Assembly (NCBI GenBank): GCA_013297885.1
Contig: JAAFIR010000026.1
Location: 1 to 64,000, forward strand
DNA from: Leptospirales bacterium
Lineage (GTDB): Bacteria > Spirochaetota > Leptospiria > Leptospirales > Leptospiraceae
DNA length: 64,000 nucleotides
Direction of reading: 5' to 3'
Shown here piece by piece: positions 11,587 to 60,883 of the stretch. A model generated the notes under the pieces. That model was given only the letters and a program-made list of their open reading frames with translations, was not told the DNA's origin and did no database searches. Made by a program: the position numbers and the translations under genes. The number at the start of each line of letters is the position of its first letter. Position 1 is the stretch's first letter.

Positions 11587-11985
11587 TTAACGTTTAGAGA
11601 ACTGAGTTCCTCTTCTAGCTTTTCTTCTACCATATTTCTTTCTTTCCACCATTCTTGAATCTCTTGTGAGGAAACCTTCTTTTTTGAGAACAGCTCTATT
11701 TTCACCAGACTTTAAAGCAAGAGCTCTTGAAATAGCATGACGAATTGCATGAACTTGTCCGTTAATTCCACCACCAGTTACATTGATTTGGTAATCAAAT
11801 TTGCTATCAGCGTTAACTTTTGAAATTGGATCTAAAACAACTGAAACTTTTTGATCACCTGTTTTAATGTATTCTTTAATGTCTTTGTGATTGATGGTGA
11901 TTTTTCCAGTACCATCAGTAATTTTTAATCTAGCTACAGAAGTTTTTCTTCTACCTACTGTCCAAGTGCCTTTATCTTTTCCCAT
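11587..11985 (-). CDS. rpsI: 30S ribosomal protein S9
   Basis: The 132-residue protein is a typical S9: [12 protein letters not shown] at the N-terminus, the GGGINGQ motif and [14 protein letters not shown] in the middle, and the basic tail [18 protein letters not shown] that reaches toward the P site. It lies 9 bp downstream of rplM, the usual L13-S9 pairing, and continues directly into recX and alaS. Confidence 0.98.
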
Positions 11986-11994
11986 ATTGTCCTT

Positions 11995-12444
11995 CTATAA
12001 TTCTAATTTAACTGGTTTTTGTGCTGATAGATTGTGATTTGCATCAGCAAATACTCTGAGGTTTGTAAGCATAACATCACCAAGTTTGGTTTTTGGTAAC
12101 ATGCCTTTTACACCTTCTTTAACAATTCTAGTTGGATTTTCTTTAATCAAATCTTTAAAAGCAATTGAAGTGAGTCCACCTGGATGAAGTGAATGATGGT
12201 GATACATTTTTTGGTCTTTTTTTCTACCAGTAACTTGAACTTTTGCTGCATTTATAATAATGATATTGTCTCCACAATCTTGGTTCGGAGTGAAATTTGT
12301 TTTGTGTTTTCCTCTGAGTCGAGCTGCAACAACTGAGCATAAACGCCCAAGCGTTTTACCTTCAGCATCAACTACAAACCAAGCTTTTTTTACTTCTTCT
12401 TTTTTAAGAGAAGGTGTCTTGTGAATTTGAGATATAATAGACAT
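11995..12444 (-). CDS. rplM: 50S ribosomal protein L13
   Basis: This 149-residue L13 has the expected [33 protein letters not shown] and [10 protein letters not shown] segments. First gene of the rplM-rpsI-recX-alaS transcription unit; its promoter must lie in the 120-bp AT-rich gap shared with the divergent comEC. Confidence 0.98.
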
Positions 12445-23316: not shown

Positions 23317-25050
23317 TTGAAGATTTTTTTTCTTTTTTTGTATTTATTTATTATAAATTGTAAAAAAGTAGTCCCAACAATTAAATTTTTTTTTCCATAT
23401 TTAAATTCTGATATTATTAAGAATATTGATCCCACAAATACTACAAATATAATCAATGGAAGTTTTTTAATATCCAATATTGATAGAAACACAAATGAAT
23501 TTGGAGTTGAAGCTAATTTTACAATTCAAATGTTAAAAGCACCCACTCAACCAGTTAAATTATGTTTAAAAAGTTCTGATACATTATCTGGTGGAACAAT
23601 TTCAATTTTAAATAAAGATACAGAATGTTCAAATGAGACGTTTATAGAATTTAATAATTCAAATTGGCAAGAAATTAAAAAAATTTTTGTAAAAGGAAGT
23701 AGAGGAACAGTTGGAGTTACAGGTAATACAAATTATCAAATCAGCTTTAAGATTATAACAAATGACTTGAGTTACAAAAATATCAATTTAAACACTGTTA
23801 ATATTATAAATGCAGATATTGATTTATCTTCTGAATATTTTGTTTTAATTCAACCAAATGGTTTAACTTCTGGTAGCTTGACTATAACTTTAAATTCAAA
23901 TACAAATTTAATAATTGAATCTAATTCACTAACTAGTTTTATTAATCCGCTCAGTGCTTCATCTACATATTCTGTTTCTATCAATACACAACCAACAGGA
24001 TTTAATTGTGCTTTTATCAGTAATCCTTTTGGGGTTTTAAATTCTCACACAACTATTTCTATTCAATGTATTCAAGGTAATTTGTTAAATGGAGGAATTT
24101 ATACAACTTCAGTCCTACCAACACTATCACAATCTTTTGCAGGAATGATTACAATTTCTGGTTCTATGCCTCCAACTGCAATTTCTTCAGATGTAGATGG
24201 TAATTCTTCAAATTCTAGATTTGATAATCCAATTGCAATTACTTCTGACGGTATCTTTATTTATGTTGCAGATTTGCTTAATAATAAAATTAAAAAAGTT
24301 AGAATTAGTAATGGTGAAGCCTCAACTCTCGCTTCAATTAATTTTCCTCACGGAGTAGCAACTGATGGAATTAATGTTTATGCTTCAACATATACTGATC
24401 ATAAAATAAAAAAAATAATAATTAGTACCGGAGTGGTTTCTGATTTTGCTGGTTCAGGTGTGGCTGGAGATTCAGATGGAGCTGCACTTAGTGCTGAGTT
24501 TAATCAACCAACTTATTTAACACTAGATCAAACAAATGTTTATGTATCCGATCGATTAAATTCTAAAATTAAAAAAATTAATATTTCAACTGGAATAGTT
24601 AGCACAATGATTTCAGGTTTAAATTTACCAAATGGAATTGCTGTTGATTCAGGATTTCTTTACATTGCTGATTCAGGTAATCATCAAATTCTTAGAGTAG
24701 ATATTTCAAATAATACTTCAACAATAATTGCAGGGTCTGGGTCTATTGGTGGAACAAATAATACAAATGGTTTATTGGCTACTTTTAATTTACCATATGG
24801 AATAACAATAGATGGAAGTTATATATATGTTTTAGAAGGAGGTAGTAAAAGATTTAGAAGAATTTTGAAAAACTCTCCAAATTCAGTTTCAACAATTATG
24901 AGTCAAAATGATGGTTATCAAGATGGAGTAATTAGTAACGCAAAATTTTGTGGAAATATTACGGATTGTAATACTTCAATCACCACTGACGGCTTATTTA
25001 TTTATTTTGCAGATAGATACAATCATTCGATAAGGAAATTCAATTACTAA
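23317..25050 (+). CDS. NHL-repeat beta-propeller lipoprotein
   Basis: This 577-residue predicted surface lipoprotein starts with TTG, supported by AAAGGAG 6 nt upstream (23304-23310). The signal peptide ends at IINC (Cys15). After a beta-rich N-terminal region with a Calx-beta-like look (SLKSSD...) and a linker module (SVSINTQPTGFNC, residues about 210-225), six NHL repeats form a C-terminal propeller (pattern DGxxIYVADxxNxKIKKxxISTG). Such propellers often bind proteins or glycans; ligand unknown. The same linker-plus-NHL design occurs in the gene at 53984-56332. Confidence 0.87.
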   Translation: MKIFFLFLYLFIINCKKVVPTIKFFFPYLNSDIIKNIDPTNTTNIINGSFLISNIDRNTNEFGVEANFTIQMLKAPTQPVKLCLKSSDTLSGGTISILNKDTECSNETFIEFNNSNWQEIKKIFVKGSRGTVGVTGNTNYQISFKIITNDLSYKNINLNTVNIINADIDLSSEYFVLIQPNGLTSGSLTITLNSNTNLIIESNSLTSFINPLSASSTYSVSINTQPTGFNCAFISNPFGVLNSHTTISIQCIQGNLLNGGIYTTSVLPTLSQSFAGMITISGSMPPTAISSDVDGNSSNSRFDNPIAITSDGIFIYVADLLNNKIKKVRISNGEASTLASINFPHGVATDGINVYASTYTDHKIKKIIISTGVVSDFAGSGVAGDSDGAALSAEFNQPTYLTLDQTNVYVSDRLNSKIKKINISTGIVSTMISGLNLPNGIAVDSGFLYIADSGNHQILRVDISNNTSTIIAGSGSIGGTNNTNGLLATFNLPYGITIDGSYIYVLEGGSKRFRRILKNSPNSVSTIMSQNDGYQDGVISNAKFCGNITDCNTSITTDGLFIYFADRYNHSIRKFNY

Positions 25051-40787: not shown

Positions 40788-40902
40788 GCGAATTTTTGCT
40801 AACGCAAAAACCGGGCTTTTCACTACAATCTTTTGCAACAAAATTTTAATACCAAAACTTTTCACTAAATGCAAAAGGATTTCCGCTTCAATCCCGTTTC
40901 GC
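40788..40902 (-). repeat. Structured dispersed element, copy F
   Basis: Minus-strand copy. Outer helix GCGAA/TTCGC (40898-40902 and 40788-40792 on the plus strand), inner GGG/CCC within AACGGGATTGAAGCGG and GAAAAGCCCGG. Hairpin 1 is closed by ATCCTTTTGCA and TGCAAAAGATT. Hairpin 2 is TTTTTGC-GTTA-GCAAAAA. Only 95 bp separate it from copy G, which points the other way. Confidence 0.8.
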
Positions 40903-40997
40903 TAGTGTTGAAAAAAAATTTTACAAAAGAAAAATCTAGATTAAAAAATCAAAATGCAAAGTAAATTATTTTATTTTCGATAAGTTTACCAACATAA

Positions 40998-53983: not shown

Positions 53984-56332
53984 GTGAAACAAAAAATTTT
54001 AATTCTATTCATCCTCTTAACCACTCTCCTTCAATGCAAAAAATCTAGTGATGATTCTTTTTTAGAAAGTTTATCATTACTTTTTTTAAGAAAAGACCGA
54101 GTCACAATTTCTGGTTCTGCTGTTAAAGGAATTATTAAACGTGCTGAGGTAAATATTCACAAAGTTAATTCAGATGGAACTTGTGATACAAATTCTTCTC
54201 TTGGTTCTGCATCTACTGACGAGAATGGTAATTATTCTGTTTTATACAATAAAACAAATGGGATTGTTTGTATTAGAGTTAAAGCTAGTGCAGATGGTTT
54301 CACCAAAATGTATGATGAAAAAACTAGAACAGATATTTCAATTTCTCCAAATTCCGATTTTAATTTAACCAATATTTTTTCTGAAGACAAATTAGTGGGT
54401 TCAGCACGTGGGAACAATTCTGTTTCTCCATTTTCAAGAATGGTTTCTAGAAGATTTGCAAATTTAATCGCTAGCTCAGGAGGAAGACAAACACCTCGTG
54501 AACTAAATCAACTTGCTAGTAGAGAAGTTGTTATCCGATTTGGTCTGAGTTCTGGACTTGCCTCTTCCAATACAAGAAATAATGAGCTATTAAAAAACAC
54601 AAGATCAACAAGTGTAAATGCAAATGATTTTCCTGAACTTCTAGATTTGAATTTAGATTTTAGCAATTTGAGAAATCCTTTAATCACAAAACAAATTGCA
54701 ATTCTTGCTGGATTTTCCCAACTTGCTAACCAAAATAGAACTGGCTCTACAGTAACTTCTTCTGACGTAGATTCAGTTATTGAAAGTTTTGCAAAAGATT
54801 TTGAAGATGGAATTTTTGATGGTAAAGATGGAAAAGGTGCAACTGTATTTATTGGAACAGGTGCAAGACAAATTCCACTTCCAGCAAATAGTGTTACTAA
54901 TCTTTTAACTCCAGCAATAACAACTTATTTTGCTGAAGGTGGAACTTTAAGTGTAGGCCAAAGTTCTACAACTAGTCCACCAACATCAGTAATTCCAATT
55001 GTCTCAGTTTCTACAATTAACCAAATTCAATTTTTAGATTCAGTTCAAATTCTTACTCCTGTAATTCAAACTACAACCCCTACTCCCACACCAACTCCCA
55101 CTTTTACAATTGGTGGAACAGTAACTGGTTTAACCACGTCCGGTCTAGTCCTACAGAATAATGTAGCAAACAATATATCGATAAGTTCCGGTTCCTCTAA
55201 TTTTGTATTCCCGACCGCAATCAATTCCGGCTCATCTTATTCAGTCAGCATTTTGACTCAGCCTGGTGGAAATATTCTCTGTCAAATCACGAACGGTACC
55301 GGAACTGCAACCGGAAATGTGACGAATATTGCTGTTGTTTGTGCGATTCCAATGATCGGAGGAACGATACAAAAACCTTTAAACCTGACCGGAGTTACAA
55401 CTATTTTTGCAGGCGGAATCGTAGGAGTGACTACAGGAGGAACGGTAGATGGATCCGGATCGACAGTCAGATTTAATATACCACATGCTATCGCTACCGA
55501 TGGTATTAATATGTACATCTCCCAAAATACTGCTAGTGGCGTAATTCGTAAGATTGTGATTGCGACCGGCGTAGTGTCTACGTTTGCAGGTCCCTTTGCA
55601 TCGCCGGCGGGCATAACAATGGATGATACAAATTTATATATTACGGAATATAGCCCACCTTGTGCAATTCGAAAAATTGATATAGCAACAGCAACACCAA
55701 CCTTAGTTGCAGGAGGCTCTCAGGGATTCTCGGATGCAACAGGAGCATCAGCTCAATTTAGTCAGCCTGAGGGGATCACCGTCAACGGACCAAATCTATA
55801 CGTAGCCGACGGGGCTAATCAGAGAATCCGCAAAATTGTGATCGCTACAGGCGCAGTGACTACCTTCGCAGGAAATGGTACGGGTTCTTCCGTCGATAAT
55901 GCTGTCGGCACATCGGCTACCTTTAGTGCTCCGAGTGCAGTAGTGAATGACGGAATAAACTTGTATGTTTCTGAAAGGAATGGCAATAAAATTCGTAGGA
56001 TAACTATCGGCGGATCGCAGACGGTTACTACCATTGCTGGCACCGGAGGCGGAGGAACTAACGATGGACCAGGAGCATCAGCCACTTTTTCCGGTATTTA
56101 TGGTATGACTACCGACGGATCTAATTTATACATAGCAGATACGAGTAATCAACGGATTCGTAAAATTGTCCTGGCAACCAATGTTGTCTCTACTCTTGCA
56201 GGTAGTATTTCTGGGGATATAGAAGATACAGGAAGCGCTGCACGATTTGCCAATCCAAGAGGACCAGTATCAGATGGGGTGAGTTTGTTTATTGCAGAAA
56301 TCGGCAATAATAAAATTAAGCGTATTCAATAA
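53984..56332 (+). CDS. NHL-repeat lipoprotein with compositionally foreign C-terminal half
   Basis: This 782-residue surface lipoprotein starts at GTG after TAGGTAAA. Its signal ends at LQC (Cys18). Residues about 35-380 resemble the gene before it (SGSAVKGIIKRAEVNI, SPFSRMVSRRF). From about residue 384 a linker module (GGTVTGLTTSGLVLQNN, SVSILTQPGGNILCQI) leads into six NHL repeats (IRKIVIATGVVSTFAG). DNA from about 55135 to the end is clearly richer in G+C and CG dinucleotides (55561-55620 is 35/60 GC, 54661-54720 is 19/60). It looks like a fusion of a native N-terminus to a propeller acquired from a higher-GC Leptospira-type relative. Confidence 0.87.
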   Translation: MKQKILILFILLTTLLQCKKSSDDSFLESLSLLFLRKDRVTISGSAVKGIIKRAEVNIHKVNSDGTCDTNSSLGSASTDENGNYSVLYNKTNGIVCIRVKASADGFTKMYDEKTRTDISISPNSDFNLTNIFSEDKLVGSARGNNSVSPFSRMVSRRFANLIASSGGRQTPRELNQLASREVVIRFGLSSGLASSNTRNNELLKNTRSTSVNANDFPELLDLNLDFSNLRNPLITKQIAILAGFSQLANQNRTGSTVTSSDVDSVIESFAKDFEDGIFDGKDGKGATVFIGTGARQIPLPANSVTNLLTPAITTYFAEGGTLSVGQSSTTSPPTSVIPIVSVSTINQIQFLDSVQILTPVIQTTTPTPTPTPTFTIGGTVTGLTTSGLVLQNNVANNISISSGSSNFVFPTAINSGSSYSVSILTQPGGNILCQITNGTGTATGNVTNIAVVCAIPMIGGTIQKPLNLTGVTTIFAGGIVGVTTGGTVDGSGSTVRFNIPHAIATDGINMYISQNTASGVIRKIVIATGVVSTFAGPFASPAGITMDDTNLYITEYSPPCAIRKIDIATATPTLVAGGSQGFSDATGASAQFSQPEGITVNGPNLYVADGANQRIRKIVIATGAVTTFAGNGTGSSVDNAVGTSATFSAPSAVVNDGINLYVSERNGNKIRRITIGGSQTVTTIAGTGGGGTNDGPGASATFSGIYGMTTDGSNLYIADTSNQRIRKIVLATNVVSTLAGSISGDIEDTGSAARFANPRGPVSDGVSLFIAEIGNNKIKRIQ

Positions 56333-56333
56333 T

Positions 56334-56434
56334 GACCGACCTAACCCAATTTTATATGTATTGCTGCGTTTGTTAGTAAAGACCCTTCCCTAAGAGGGAA
56401 GGGAACATGTGATGGTAATCGGATGTTCAGTGGG
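56334..56434 (+). repeat. Post-gene repeat R1, copy 1
   Basis: Begins 2 bases after the stop codon: GACCGACCTAACCCAATTTTAT ... GTTAGTAAAG, a hairpin CCCTTCCC (56383-56390) / GGGAAGGG (56396-56403), then GAACATGTGATGGTAATC and GTTCAGTGGG. A near-copy follows the lipoprotein at 59797. It could help end transcripts, although no T-run follows the hairpin. Confidence 0.75.
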
Positions 56435-56463: not shown

Positions 56464-56654
56464 TTTTTCTAAACTAGCGATAGTGATTCAAAATGTCTCG
56501 AAGAGAGTCGTGAAACGACCGAAGCATTTTGAAGCACGGGTCAGTTTTAGAAGTTTTAATTTCTAGTTTTTGAAAAATAAAAATTTCTTCTAAAACTGAC
56601 ATCGCCCAAAAAAAAGTAGAAAATGTTCAGAGGATGCTTTATTGAGTTGTGTTC
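56464..56654 (+). repeat. Structured dispersed element, copy J, within a 190-bp direct repeat
   Basis: The structured core is 56477-56607: outer helix GCGAT (56477-56481) / ATCGC (56601-56605), inner GTG (TAGTGATTC) / CAC (GAAGCACGG). Hairpin 1 is replaced by a branched arm (CAAAATG / CATTTTG enclosing TCTCGAAGAGA and GTCGTGAAACGAC). Hairpin 2 is GTCAGTTTTAGAAG with CTTCTAAAACTGAC. The conserved direct-repeat region extends to 56654 and reappears almost unchanged at 60703-60883. Confidence 0.82.
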
Positions 56655-56932: not shown

Positions 56933-57235
56933 ATGAAGACAATTGATAAAAAATTAATTTTTGAAATTCTAAAAAATCATGAAAATAAAATAAAAATTTT
57001 TGGTGTACAAAAAATTGGACTTTTTGGCTCTTTTGCAAATGGTCTAGAAAATGAAAATTCTGATATTGATTTTTTAGTTGAATTTTACGAAAATCAAGTA
57101 ACCTATGACAATTATTTTGATTTGAAGTTTTTTTTAGAAAAAATTTTTCAAAGAAAAATTGATTTAGTCACTTCAAAAAGTATAAAAATTCCACTTAGAG
57201 AATCTATATTAAAATCAGTAGTGTATGTCTCGTGA
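56933..57235 (+). CDS. mntA: MNT-type nucleotidyltransferase antitoxin
   Basis: This 100-residue minimal nucleotidyltransferase has the signature GLFGSFANG (Gly32-Ser33) and SDIDFLVEF, with catalytic Asp44 and Asp46. In HEPN/MNT toxin-antitoxin systems such enzymes add AMP to a Tyr next to the HEPN active site and so neutralise the RNase toxin. It overlaps the HEPN gene by 11 bp, the usual arrangement, and has its own good promoter. Confidence 0.9.
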   Translation: MKTIDKKLIFEILKNHENKIKIFGVQKIGLFGSFANGLENENSDIDFLVEFYENQVTYDNYFDLKFFLEKIFQRKIDLVTSKSIKIPLRESILKSVVYVS

Positions 57236-57569
57236 AATTAAAATTTTTATTTTAGATATTCTTTCCTCAATTAAAGAAATTGAAATTTTTACTTTTGAGA
57301 TTAAAAATCTTGAAGCTTATTCAATTGATTATAAAACCAAAAGAGCGGTTGAAAGAAATTTAGAAATTATTGGCGAGGCTGTAAAAAATATTCCTGATAA
57401 TATAAAAAATGAATTTTTTGAAGTTGAATGGAAAAAAATTTCAGGATTAAGAGATATGTTAGCTCATGCATATTTTAACATCGAAGATGAAATTATTTGG
57501 GATGCTGTTAAGTTAAAAATTCCAGAGCTAAAAATAATTTGTGAAAAAATTTTAACAAAAATAAGTTAA
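57225..57569 (+). CDS. hepT: HEPN-domain RNase toxin
   Basis: This 114-residue HEPN protein (DUF86/HepT type) is the probable toxin partner of the upstream MNT protein. The RNase motif R-x4-H is RDMLAH, with Arg76 and His81, followed by the YFNI segment whose Tyr (in HAYF) is the known AMPylation site in characterised HepT proteins. ERNLEIIGEAVKNIP fits the family helix. Complete and probably active. Confidence 0.9.
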   Translation: MSREIKIFILDILSSIKEIEIFTFEIKNLEAYSIDYKTKRAVERNLEIIGEAVKNIPDNIKNEFFEVEWKKISGLRDMLAHAYFNIEDEIIWDAVKLKIPELKIICEKILTKIS

Positions 57570-57601
57570 GAATTTAATATTTGAAGCACACCAAAAAAAA
57601 C

Positions 57602-57635
57602 TTGACAAACTACTAGGAGGGGGGGGGAATACTGT
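57602..57635 (+). promoter_or_regulatory. Promoter with a G9 tract in its spacer
   Basis: TTGACA (57602-57607) is followed by AACTACTAGGA and nine G's (57619-57627). The nearest -10-like words are AATACT (57628-57633, spacer 20) and TACTGT (57630-57635, spacer 22). Spacing is longer than the optimal 17, so loss of G's by slippage would raise promoter strength. A related but G-poor sequence (TTGACAAACTATAAGGAAGG) occurs at about 56701. Confidence 0.55.
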
Positions 57636-57664
57636 AGTAGAAATAAATTTTTAGGAAATTGTAA

Positions 57665-58432
57665 GTGAAAAAAATAATTGTATTAGTCCTTCTATATAGT
57701 TTAACAAATTGTGGAGACACAAAAATTTTAAAACCATTTAGAGTTCAGTATGCTAAATTTGATAGCATGGGAAATTTACCAACTACTCTCGCAACACCAA
57801 ACCAAGTATGTGAAACTTTACTTGTAAAAAGATTTTATAATCTCCTTTTTTATTTGCCCTTAAATCAATATTCTCCTGAAGAATTAGAAAAAATTCATTC
57901 CTCTAGTTCTATCAAATTTAGAACAGTTTTTAGACCTCTAGATTTATTTTTAACATTTATTGGATTTTTAACTTCAGTAACTGTGAATACTGTAGAAATA
58001 GACTCTTGTGCAAAACAACTTCAGTCCAAAACTGTAAATGCCAAACATGTTGAGGAATACATAGAAGCTCCCATACTTTCTGGTTATTCCAACTATAGAA
58101 AAAATATTTCAAAATCAGGTGCAAAACAATTTTACATTTCATTTATTCCAAAACAAGTTAATTGGACAAATGGCGAAGAAACTAAATTTGAAAATTTTGC
58201 AAATATTTATAAAACAAAATATTCTAGTTTTAAAATATTTTTATTATCTCATTCCGATGAAATAGATTATAAAATTTCTTCTGAAAGATTAAAAAAAGTA
58301 AAAGAGAATTTAGTAAAAAAAGGAATTAGCAAAGATTTAATTTTTTCTGCAATCGACATTGGAACCATCACAAGCGAAATAGATAAAAAAAATAAAGTAA
58401 CCCAGAGAGTAGATATACTCATTTTGGATTAG
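57665..58432 (+). CDS. OmpA-like lipoprotein under a phase-variable-looking promoter
   Basis: This 255-residue protein starts at GTG after AGGAAATTGTAA. Its signal ends at LTNC (Cys16). The middle has a hydrophobic segment (LDLFLTFIGFLTSVTVNTV). The C-terminal about 110 residues form an OmpA/MotB-like peptidoglycan-binding domain: FYISFIPKQVNW, FKIFLLSHSDEIDYKISSERLKKVKENLVKKGI and QRVDILIL. The usual Asp and Arg that grip diaminopimelate are only partly visible (SHSDE, SERLK). Likely tethers the outer membrane to the cell wall. Followed 9 bp later by another lipoprotein. Confidence 0.78.
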   Translation: MKKIIVLVLLYSLTNCGDTKILKPFRVQYAKFDSMGNLPTTLATPNQVCETLLVKRFYNLLFYLPLNQYSPEELEKIHSSSSIKFRTVFRPLDLFLTFIGFLTSVTVNTVEIDSCAKQLQSKTVNAKHVEEYIEAPILSGYSNYRKNISKSGAKQFYISFIPKQVNWTNGEETKFENFANIYKTKYSSFKIFLLSHSDEIDYKISSERLKKVKENLVKKGISKDLIFSAIDIGTITSEIDKKNKVTQRVDILILD

Positions 58433-58441
58433 GAGAAAAAT

Positions 58442-59797
58442 ATGTTTAGAAAAATTTGTTTTTTGTTTATAGGATTATTCATTTTTGAAACTTGCGGATT
58501 TGTGATGCTCAGCCAAAATAACGAAAAGAAAAGTTCAATTCCCTATCCTTTGGCATTACTTGGTGTGAGACAAAGTGGTAGTGGTGGAAATAGTGGAAAT
58601 TCTGGTGGTGCAAATGGTGGTGGTGGAACAGTTCAAACTGGAACTGGTGTTGGGACAGGAACTGGTTCAGGAGCAGCGACTGGCACTGGGACTCCACCTG
58701 TTGCACCTAGTGGGCTAAATTATGCTAACAGTCCTTTTTCATTTTTACAAGGCTCAGCTATTACCACTTTAACACCAACAATAAATGGAACAGTTACTAG
58801 CTGTAGTTCAATTCCAGCATTACCAACAGGTTTAACCTTAAACAATACTACTTGTGCAATTAGTGGAACACCCACAACATGGCAAGCTGCTACAAGTCAT
58901 ACAATCACTGCAACAAACTCTGGAGGAAATATCACAGCAAATCTAAATATTCAAGTAACATCAGATGGTTCAACATGGACAGCAAGAACCTTACCTAGTT
59001 CACAAAATTGGTCTTCAGTTACTTTTGGAAATGGAATTTTTTTAGCTGTCTCATCAGGCAGTAATGTTGCTGCAACTTCATCAAACGGAACTACTTGGAC
59101 GGCAAGAACTTTACCTAGTTCTCAGCAATGGAGTTCAGTGACATTTGGAAATGGGATATTTGTTTCAGTTGCGACCTCAAGTAATGTTGCAGCTACATCT
59201 CCAGATGGGATTAATTGGACTTCACGTACTTTACCAAGTGTCTCAGGTTGGCGCACTGTCGGTTATGGGAACGGGATTTTCGTTTCTTTAGGAGGTGGGG
59301 CTGTAGCAAGTTCACAAGATAGTATTATATGGACATCTGGAACTAATGGTTGCCCGATGATGGCTGGTAATTGCTCCGAATCGGTAGTATACGGTAACGG
59401 AGTTTTTGTGGGCATTGGTAATGGTGGGATATCATCTTCTGATGGTTCAAATTGGACATTCCTCACAACACCAATCTCAGGTATGTTTGGGGTTGCATTC
59501 GGGAACGGTACTTTTGTAGCAATGGATACACACACAGGTTCAGCAACATCGATGGATGGGATTAATTGGGTATCTGGAACAAACGTATTAGCTGGTCAGG
59601 ATAATCTTGCTTTTGGTAACGGTATTTTTCTCTCAGTTATTAGAAATACAAATACAGCAATATCTTCACCGGATGCTGTTACTTGGACTACTCGAACCTT
59701 ACCAAGTAATTCAGAATGGAGTTCAGTTGCATATGGGAATGGAAGGTTTGTTACTATTGCTCGTGGACCTAGCAATATTGCAGCAAGTTCCCCTTAA
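58442..59797 (+). CDS. Ig-like and WxxRTLPS-repeat lipoprotein
   Basis: This 451-residue lipoprotein has a signal ending at FETC (Cys20), a YPLALLGVRQ segment close to the YPLALLGGQK of the gene at 96, a Gly/Thr-rich linker (residues about 36-85), one putative-Ig domain (SIPALPTGLTLNNTTCAISGTP) and then about seven repeats of some 40 residues with the pattern WTxRTLPSxxxWxSVxFGNGIFV...TSxDG. These resemble Ycf48/BNR-like propeller blades. It is downstream of the OmpA-like lipoprotein and followed by repeat R1 copy 2. Surface binding role likely, ligand unknown. Confidence 0.84.
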   Translation: MFRKICFLFIGLFIFETCGFVMLSQNNEKKSSIPYPLALLGVRQSGSGGNSGNSGGANGGGGTVQTGTGVGTGTGSGAATGTGTPPVAPSGLNYANSPFSFLQGSAITTLTPTINGTVTSCSSIPALPTGLTLNNTTCAISGTPTTWQAATSHTITATNSGGNITANLNIQVTSDGSTWTARTLPSSQNWSSVTFGNGIFLAVSSGSNVAATSSNGTTWTARTLPSSQQWSSVTFGNGIFVSVATSSNVAATSPDGINWTSRTLPSVSGWRTVGYGNGIFVSLGGGAVASSQDSIIWTSGTNGCPMMAGNCSESVVYGNGVFVGIGNGGISSSDGSNWTFLTTPISGMFGVAFGNGTFVAMDTHTGSATSMDGINWVSGTNVLAGQDNLAFGNGIFLSVIRNTNTAISSPDAVTWTTRTLPSNSEWSSVAYGNGRFVTIARGPSNIAASSP

Positions 59798-59855
59798 AAA
59801 TTTAATTTAACTTTTTGATACAAGAGTTACTTTGTCTCGAGATAACAATTATATA

Positions 59856-59957
59856 ACCGACCTAACCCAATTTTATTTGGATTGTGGTGTTGGGTAGTAA
59901 AGTCCCTTCCCTGGGAAGGGAAGGGAACTTTTGATAGTAATCATATGTTCGGTGGGC
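59856..59957 (+). repeat. Post-gene repeat R1, copy 2
   Basis: ACCGACCTAACCCAATTTTAT ... GTTGGGTAGTAAAG, hairpin CCCTTCCC / GGGAAGGG and GTTCGGTGGG, matching 56334-56434 along its length. Between 59798 and 60098 nothing else was seen apart from a TTTGAAATCAAG-rich tail and the ribosome site of the next (broken) gene. Confidence 0.72.
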
Positions 59958-60661: not shown

Positions 60662-60702
60662 TCTGGCATGATGGGTGTCACAACCCACTGAATTTTTCTA
60701 AA

Positions 60703-60883
60703 CTAGCGATAGTGATTCAAAATGTCTCGAAGAGAGTCGTGAAACGACCGAAGCATTTTGAAGCACGGGTCAGTTTTAGAAGTTTTAATTTCTAATTTTT
60801 GAAAAATAAAAATTTGCTTCTAAAACTGACATCGCCCAAAAAAAATAGGAAATTTTCAGAGGATGATTTATTGGGTTGTGTTC
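60703..60883 (+). repeat. Structured dispersed element, copy K, second member of the 190-bp direct repeat
   Basis: Core 60716-60837: outer helix GCGAT/ATCGC, inner GTG/CAC, with sequence nearly identical to copy J including the branched arm and the GTCAGTTTTAGAAG hairpin. The match to 56464-56654 continues through TTCAGAGGATG and GTTGTGTTC. The two copies are in the same orientation 4.2 kb apart. Confidence 0.82.

Follow-up and report, generated by a model that had tools for sequence, protein, structure and literature searches.

Mosaic genes for surface proteins arise by partial (intragenic) horizontal transfer. The gene that we describe here, at positions 53984-56332 of a 64,000-nucleotide stretch of the genome of a Leptospirales bacterium (hereafter the window), resembles such genes in its sharp internal change of composition, in the different relatives of its two halves and in a boundary that falls in a domain linker. 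It departs from the usual mosaic genes, in which a donor allele is identified and homologous segments occur on both sides, in that a whole folded domain appears to have been replaced and the donor lies outside the sampled genomes.

Polymorphic toxins offer another comparison. As outlined in PMC3482391, they have a constant N-terminus and a C-terminal tip that is swapped by recombination with stand-alone cassettes. The lipoprotein family of the window gene parallels this outline in its constant N-half and its varied C-terminal modules, which also occur in stand-alone genes. It differs from the outline in that the N-half is a lipoprotein and the modules are propellers, Lcl_C and Ig-like domains, and none of the Pfam domains in these modules (NHL, Lactonase, Lcl_C, He_PIG and CHB_HEX) is a toxin domain. 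By these domains the family does not qualify as a polymorphic toxin, which pairs a C-terminal toxin domain with a neighbouring immunity gene.

The closest individual proteins are NHL lipoproteins of Leptospiraceae such as C535 of the congener G003, which likewise carries a lipobox-like N-terminus, a beta-sandwich repeat and, behind it, an NHL propeller of the six-bladed type. That protein is short (439 amino acids) and stand-alone, whereas the propeller described here is joined to a family-specific stalk of 360 residues. The type of event that we propose is already known, and the window gene is a clean example of that process. The scale on which this lipoprotein family exchanges its C-terminal modules was not found described: literature searches, at the level of search results, returned no recognisable account of the family or of the exchange.

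Layout of the gene and its surroundings

The gene is a single entry in the list of open reading frames (ORFs), and its features are collected together with those of its relatives in the table below. By-eye reading of the N-terminus gives a signal peptide and a lipobox-like site at Cys18; Cys18-Lys19 is invariant in all six aligned family members, the N-terminus is hydrophobic, and a lipobox is predicted on this basis. The sole Pfam domain in the gene is the NHL repeat (PF01436), which scores 34.8 bits against a gathering cut-off of 20.

Features of the window gene, of its 3' flank and of related genes (positions refer to the window unless a locus is named)
Feature	Position	Strand	Description
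Lipoprotein gene, probably chimeric	53984..56332	+	782 aa; GTG start; C-module NHL
Native N-half, putative exported lipoprotein stalk	53984..55060	+	Residues 1-359; no Pfam domain
Junction interval	55061..55136	+	Likelihood interval; covers the Pro/Thr linker and the strand (IGGTVTG) with which the probably imported module begins
C-half, probably imported	55133..56332	+	Delimited by composition, codons, AF2 and Foldseek
REP-like element with hairpin	56339..56411	+	6 nt after the stop codon of the gene
Multicopy palindromic intergenic repeat	56464..56654	+	96% identical to 60693-60883
Flanking block of four genes	56933..59902	+	Duplicated at C39, 90% and 80% DNA identity
Family member C4			C-module Lactonase-like propeller, just below Pfam cut-off
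Family member C39	L023 4591-7032		C-module He_PIG + NHL
Family member C49	L024 3400-5658		C-module CHB_HEX + two Lcl_C
Family member C55	L025 2918-5124		C-module He_PIG + Gly-rich
Family member in congener G002			C-module three He_PIG

Downstream of the gene lies a REP-like element whose type also occurs behind the paralogues C39 and C49 and behind gene 58442-59797 (copy at 59860-59933). Three of the five own-genome family members (the window gene, C39 and C49) carry the element 0-48 nt after their stop codons, and its 18-base core has only three exact matches in 4.6 Mb, in these same three places; the core pattern was built from those three copies, and the next best matches carry two mismatches. 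Genome-wide there are 53 copies at E<=0.001, and three congeners have 1, 6 and 17 weaker copies; these counts favour the own genome, whose copies served to train the model. Most of the ten best copies stand behind genes for exported or modular proteins; seven of these ten were training copies and the genome has 53 copies in all, so the link to modular genes is a lead only. Given these genomic copies and those in congeners, the element may be a passive repeat. Rfam returned nothing above its gathering score on the 3' flank, and an integron attC site, weighed by eye by its core sites, was dropped as an identity for the element.

The palindromic repeat that follows has about 30 matches in the genome, and the flank folds with a z of -5.5. 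By-eye names for the genes of the four-gene block are an MNT-like nucleotidyltransferase, a HEPN-like protein, an OmpA-like lipoprotein and a repeat protein, and the C39 copy of this block, too, lies behind a gene of this lipoprotein family. Elsewhere in the window, on the minus strand at 40805-40907, there is a match to the Rfam Flavo-1 RNA above gathering score in what is a spirochaete genome.

An abrupt change of composition within the gene

A sequence-only reading of the window had placed a change of composition near position 55135, with hand counts of 19 G+C in 60 nucleotides at 54661-54720 and 35 in 60 at 55561-55620 and with CG dinucleotides frequent thereafter. These counts are exact, and the change is borne out by four-fold-degenerate sites. 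Between residues 1-383 and residues 384-782, GC rises from 0.330 to 0.449, four-fold-site GC from 0.112 to 0.373, the CpG observed/expected ratio from 0.29 to 1.15 and the number of CG dinucleotides from 9 to 69. Background four-fold GC has a mean of 0.124 and a standard deviation of 0.048 (308 ORFs), and the CG count of 1.2-kb stretches of the window outside the region never exceeds 28.

Four-fold sites place the best single change point at residue 384 (nucleotide 55133), with an LLR of 19.95, where 1000 shuffles reach at most 9.28; positions within 1.92 log units span residues 360-385, or nucleotides 55061-55136. The best further split within the C-half gains an LLR of only 1.4. The same scan over a sample of 198 ORFs with 300 or more codons, drawn from stretches of this genome, placed the gene first, with a runner-up at 8.11, and the maximum among 74 ORFs from three congeners was 8.95. 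The discontinuity in composition and codon usage within this gene therefore exceeds the range of the sampled own-genome ORFs (n=198). The switch had been proposed to coincide with the end of the part that resembles the preceding gene, which does not hold: that similarity (31% identity) ends near residue 282, and the closer paralogues place the family boundary at about residue 355.

A predicted complete propeller behind the linker

An AlphaFold2 (AF2) model of the C-half, run with an alignment of eight sequences, reached a pLDDT of 89.8. The model begins with a beta-sandwich of some 80 residues (376-455), which is followed by a propeller (about 470-782) of six four-stranded blades, counted by eye from the DSSP strand list; the last blade is completed by a strand that comes from the start. 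The C-half is thus predicted to form a closed propeller of four-stranded blades. Foldseek matched the model to chains titled NHL (e.g. 6g7w and 6xg7) with E-values below 1e-10. Together, the six-blade model and these matches indicate that the import would have comprised one complete folding unit behind the Pro/Thr linker. The corresponding model of the N-half was poor (pLDDT 46) and unusable. The beta-sandwich module itself (55109-55348) has no Pfam name, and modules of this type often stand in tandem in proteins of congeners.

Different nearest relatives of the two halves

Relatives of the N-half occur in only 6 of 198 genomes of the phylum, and the own genome holds the closest. The N-half is 70% identical to C4, 44% to its G002 homologue, 43% to that of G001, 42% to own C49, 41% to own C39 and, over part of its length, 52% to own C55. 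A tree groups it with C4 (support 100/99), its synonymous codons fit the own genome best of 25 genomes, and a search of genome_contigs gave no confirmed match. By these comparisons, the N-half is native.

Relatives of the C-half are found more widely, in 78 of the 198 phylum genomes and 23 of 30 genomes of the order. The closest full-length match is the stand-alone G003 lipoprotein, whose public record is a Leptospiraceae MAG; identity is 43-45%, and the gene has a four-fold GC of 0.326 and a CpG ratio of 1.06. Synonymous codons of the C-half fit G003, G002 and G001 best, in that order, and the own genome comes 18th among the 25; apart from that of the own genome, the codon tables are built on little sequence (2-53 kb of ORFs), and a few NHL genes contribute to those of G001-G003, one of them being the homologue in G003. 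The two halves thus differ in codon usage when compared separately, and they do not have the same closest relatives in the same order, since C4 leads for one and G003 for the other.

This incongruence is accompanied by a C-half tree that is itself star-like, does not resolve and names no donor. An own-genome gene, C13, is 41% identical to the C-half over its full length, nearly as much as the G003 protein. At the DNA level, a search of the 198 phylum genomes found no full-length match except in the own genome; all others were short and local. Among plasmids and phages there were only weak, remote propeller homologues, viral_contigs gave no match, and the eight loci found in genome_contigs were led by the G003 record. 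No donor above about 45% identity was found in the order genomes, the phylum genomes or genome_contigs. Given this ceiling and the star-like tree, the donor most probably lies outside the sampled genomes. Because no close donor was found, the tree is a star and C13 is a near-equal match, it is chiefly composition and codon usage, and not phylogeny, that justify the term foreign. On that footing, the recombination with a higher-GC Leptospira-type gene that the sequence-only reading favoured is largely supported, and the search for the donor itself ended at about 45% identity.

A lipoprotein family with variable C-terminal modules

Five own-genome members (the window gene, C4, C39, C49 and C55) have related N-halves and different C-terminal modules. 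The paralogues have residues 1-355 in common, and their C-terminal modules are unrelated. The point at which DNA similarity stops is almost the same from one pair to another: 55046 for the window gene and C4, and residue 355 for C39 and C49. Up to that residue, C39 and C49 share 645 nt without a difference, and beyond it they are unrelated, which argues that the exchange of C-terminal modules at about residue 355 has been both recent and repeated. From these alignments, the family appears to keep exchanging its second halves behind a constant N-half. C55 is split by a frameshift near residue 250, either as a pseudogene or through a sequencing error.

No composition jump comparable to that of the window gene was found in the other family members tested, and the window gene is therefore the one case in which the module apparently came from outside. 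The shift had been presented as an isolated case; the gene belongs, however, to a family whose C-terminal modules have been exchanged repeatedly.

Origin of the C-half and alternative explanations

We conclude, with a probability of roughly 0.85, that the gene is a mosaic of a native lipoprotein N-half and an NHL-encoding 3' part from a higher-GC Leptospiraceae relative. In a native gene for an outer-membrane-type lipoprotein, the original C-terminal module would have given way to the 3' part of an NHL-propeller gene, brought in by recombination within the DNA that encodes the linker. The donor may have belonged to a related lineage of the Leptospiraceae whose GC, at about 35-37%, is higher and resembles that of the congeners. 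Homologous recombination in the N-half or the linker would be the simplest 5' event. From its position, the REP-like element would mark the 3' limit of the import, and it may have served as a second, 3' homology arm.

The composition could instead follow the type of domain, if repeat-rich Gly/Thr/Ala/Pro propellers have a high GC in whatever genome they occur. Raw GC is indeed high in further exported repeat genes of the window, and re-encoding the C-half 1000 times with native codons already yields a GC of 0.375 (maximum 0.393) against the observed 0.449. Amino-acid make-up nevertheless accounts for only part of the rise: the re-encodings gave a four-fold GC of 0.116 (maximum 0.184) against 0.373 and 20 CG dinucleotides (maximum 35) against 69, and none of the 1000 came up to the real C-half in four-fold GC, total GC or CG count. 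Native four-fold GC values of 0.07-0.15 are found in six further genes of NHL type in this genome (C13, C37, C26a, C26b, C28b and window 23317-25050); the last is the lipoprotein whose ordinary composition had already been taken to mean that domain type does not explain the shift, a view with which the four-fold sites and the re-encodings agree. Raw GC alone would mislead, since the repeat-rich exported gene 58442-59797 has a raw GC of 0.41 and a four-fold GC of 0.17. The domain-type explanation is refuted by these tests, and we consider it very improbable. High expression with codon selection was also rejected: the ribosomal protein genes at 11587-12444, named by eye, have a four-fold GC of 0.09-0.12.

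An origin of the C-half elsewhere in this genome, in a prophage, plasmid or island of higher GC and with no direct import from another lineage, seems unlikely. Other stretches of high four-fold GC do exist, at the end of contig C28 (an Lcl_C gene with four-fold GC 0.318 and CpG 0.93) and in ORFs of L134 and L137, yet the assembly holds no second DNA-level copy of the C-half, only a 68-nt match, and such islands are probably foreign themselves, so this route would differ from direct import only in its number of steps. The least likely reading is an assembly chimera that joins two organisms inside the gene. The genome is a draft in 72 contigs; however, the frame is open across the join, and the join lies at a domain boundary that the paralogues use. 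The 3' flank, moreover, holds a repeat of the own-genome type followed by the block duplicated at C39, which places the chimera in native surroundings and speaks against a faulty join. As a separate observation, the last 6 kb of C28 (L030 5114-6406 and neighbours) have a four-fold GC of 0.23-0.32 and contain Lcl_C genes and two small four-helix-like genes; this stretch is probably a second import.

Implications for surface proteins

If the mosaic origin is correct, the window gene is an unusually clean snapshot of how a bacterium gains a surface-type domain: an anchor that was already present received an entire folded propeller in a single event, and the codons have not yet adapted. The constant N-half would supply export and lipid anchoring and the C-half an exposed binding surface, so that one recombination could re-tool surface ligand specificity and leave the anchor untouched. 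More speculatively, and in our estimate with the odds well against it, this lineage of the Leptospiraceae may possess a cassette-exchange system for surface lipoproteins with the stalk as 5' arm and the REP-like repeat as 3' arm, through which propeller, Ig-like and Lcl_C modules are swapped among paralogues and with other species. Such a system, if real, would bring variety to surface binding in the way that polymorphic toxins vary their tips. Because the exchange between C39 and C49 is recent, a few more strains could allow a direct measurement of how fast, and by what mechanism, relatives of Leptospira shuffle their surface domains.
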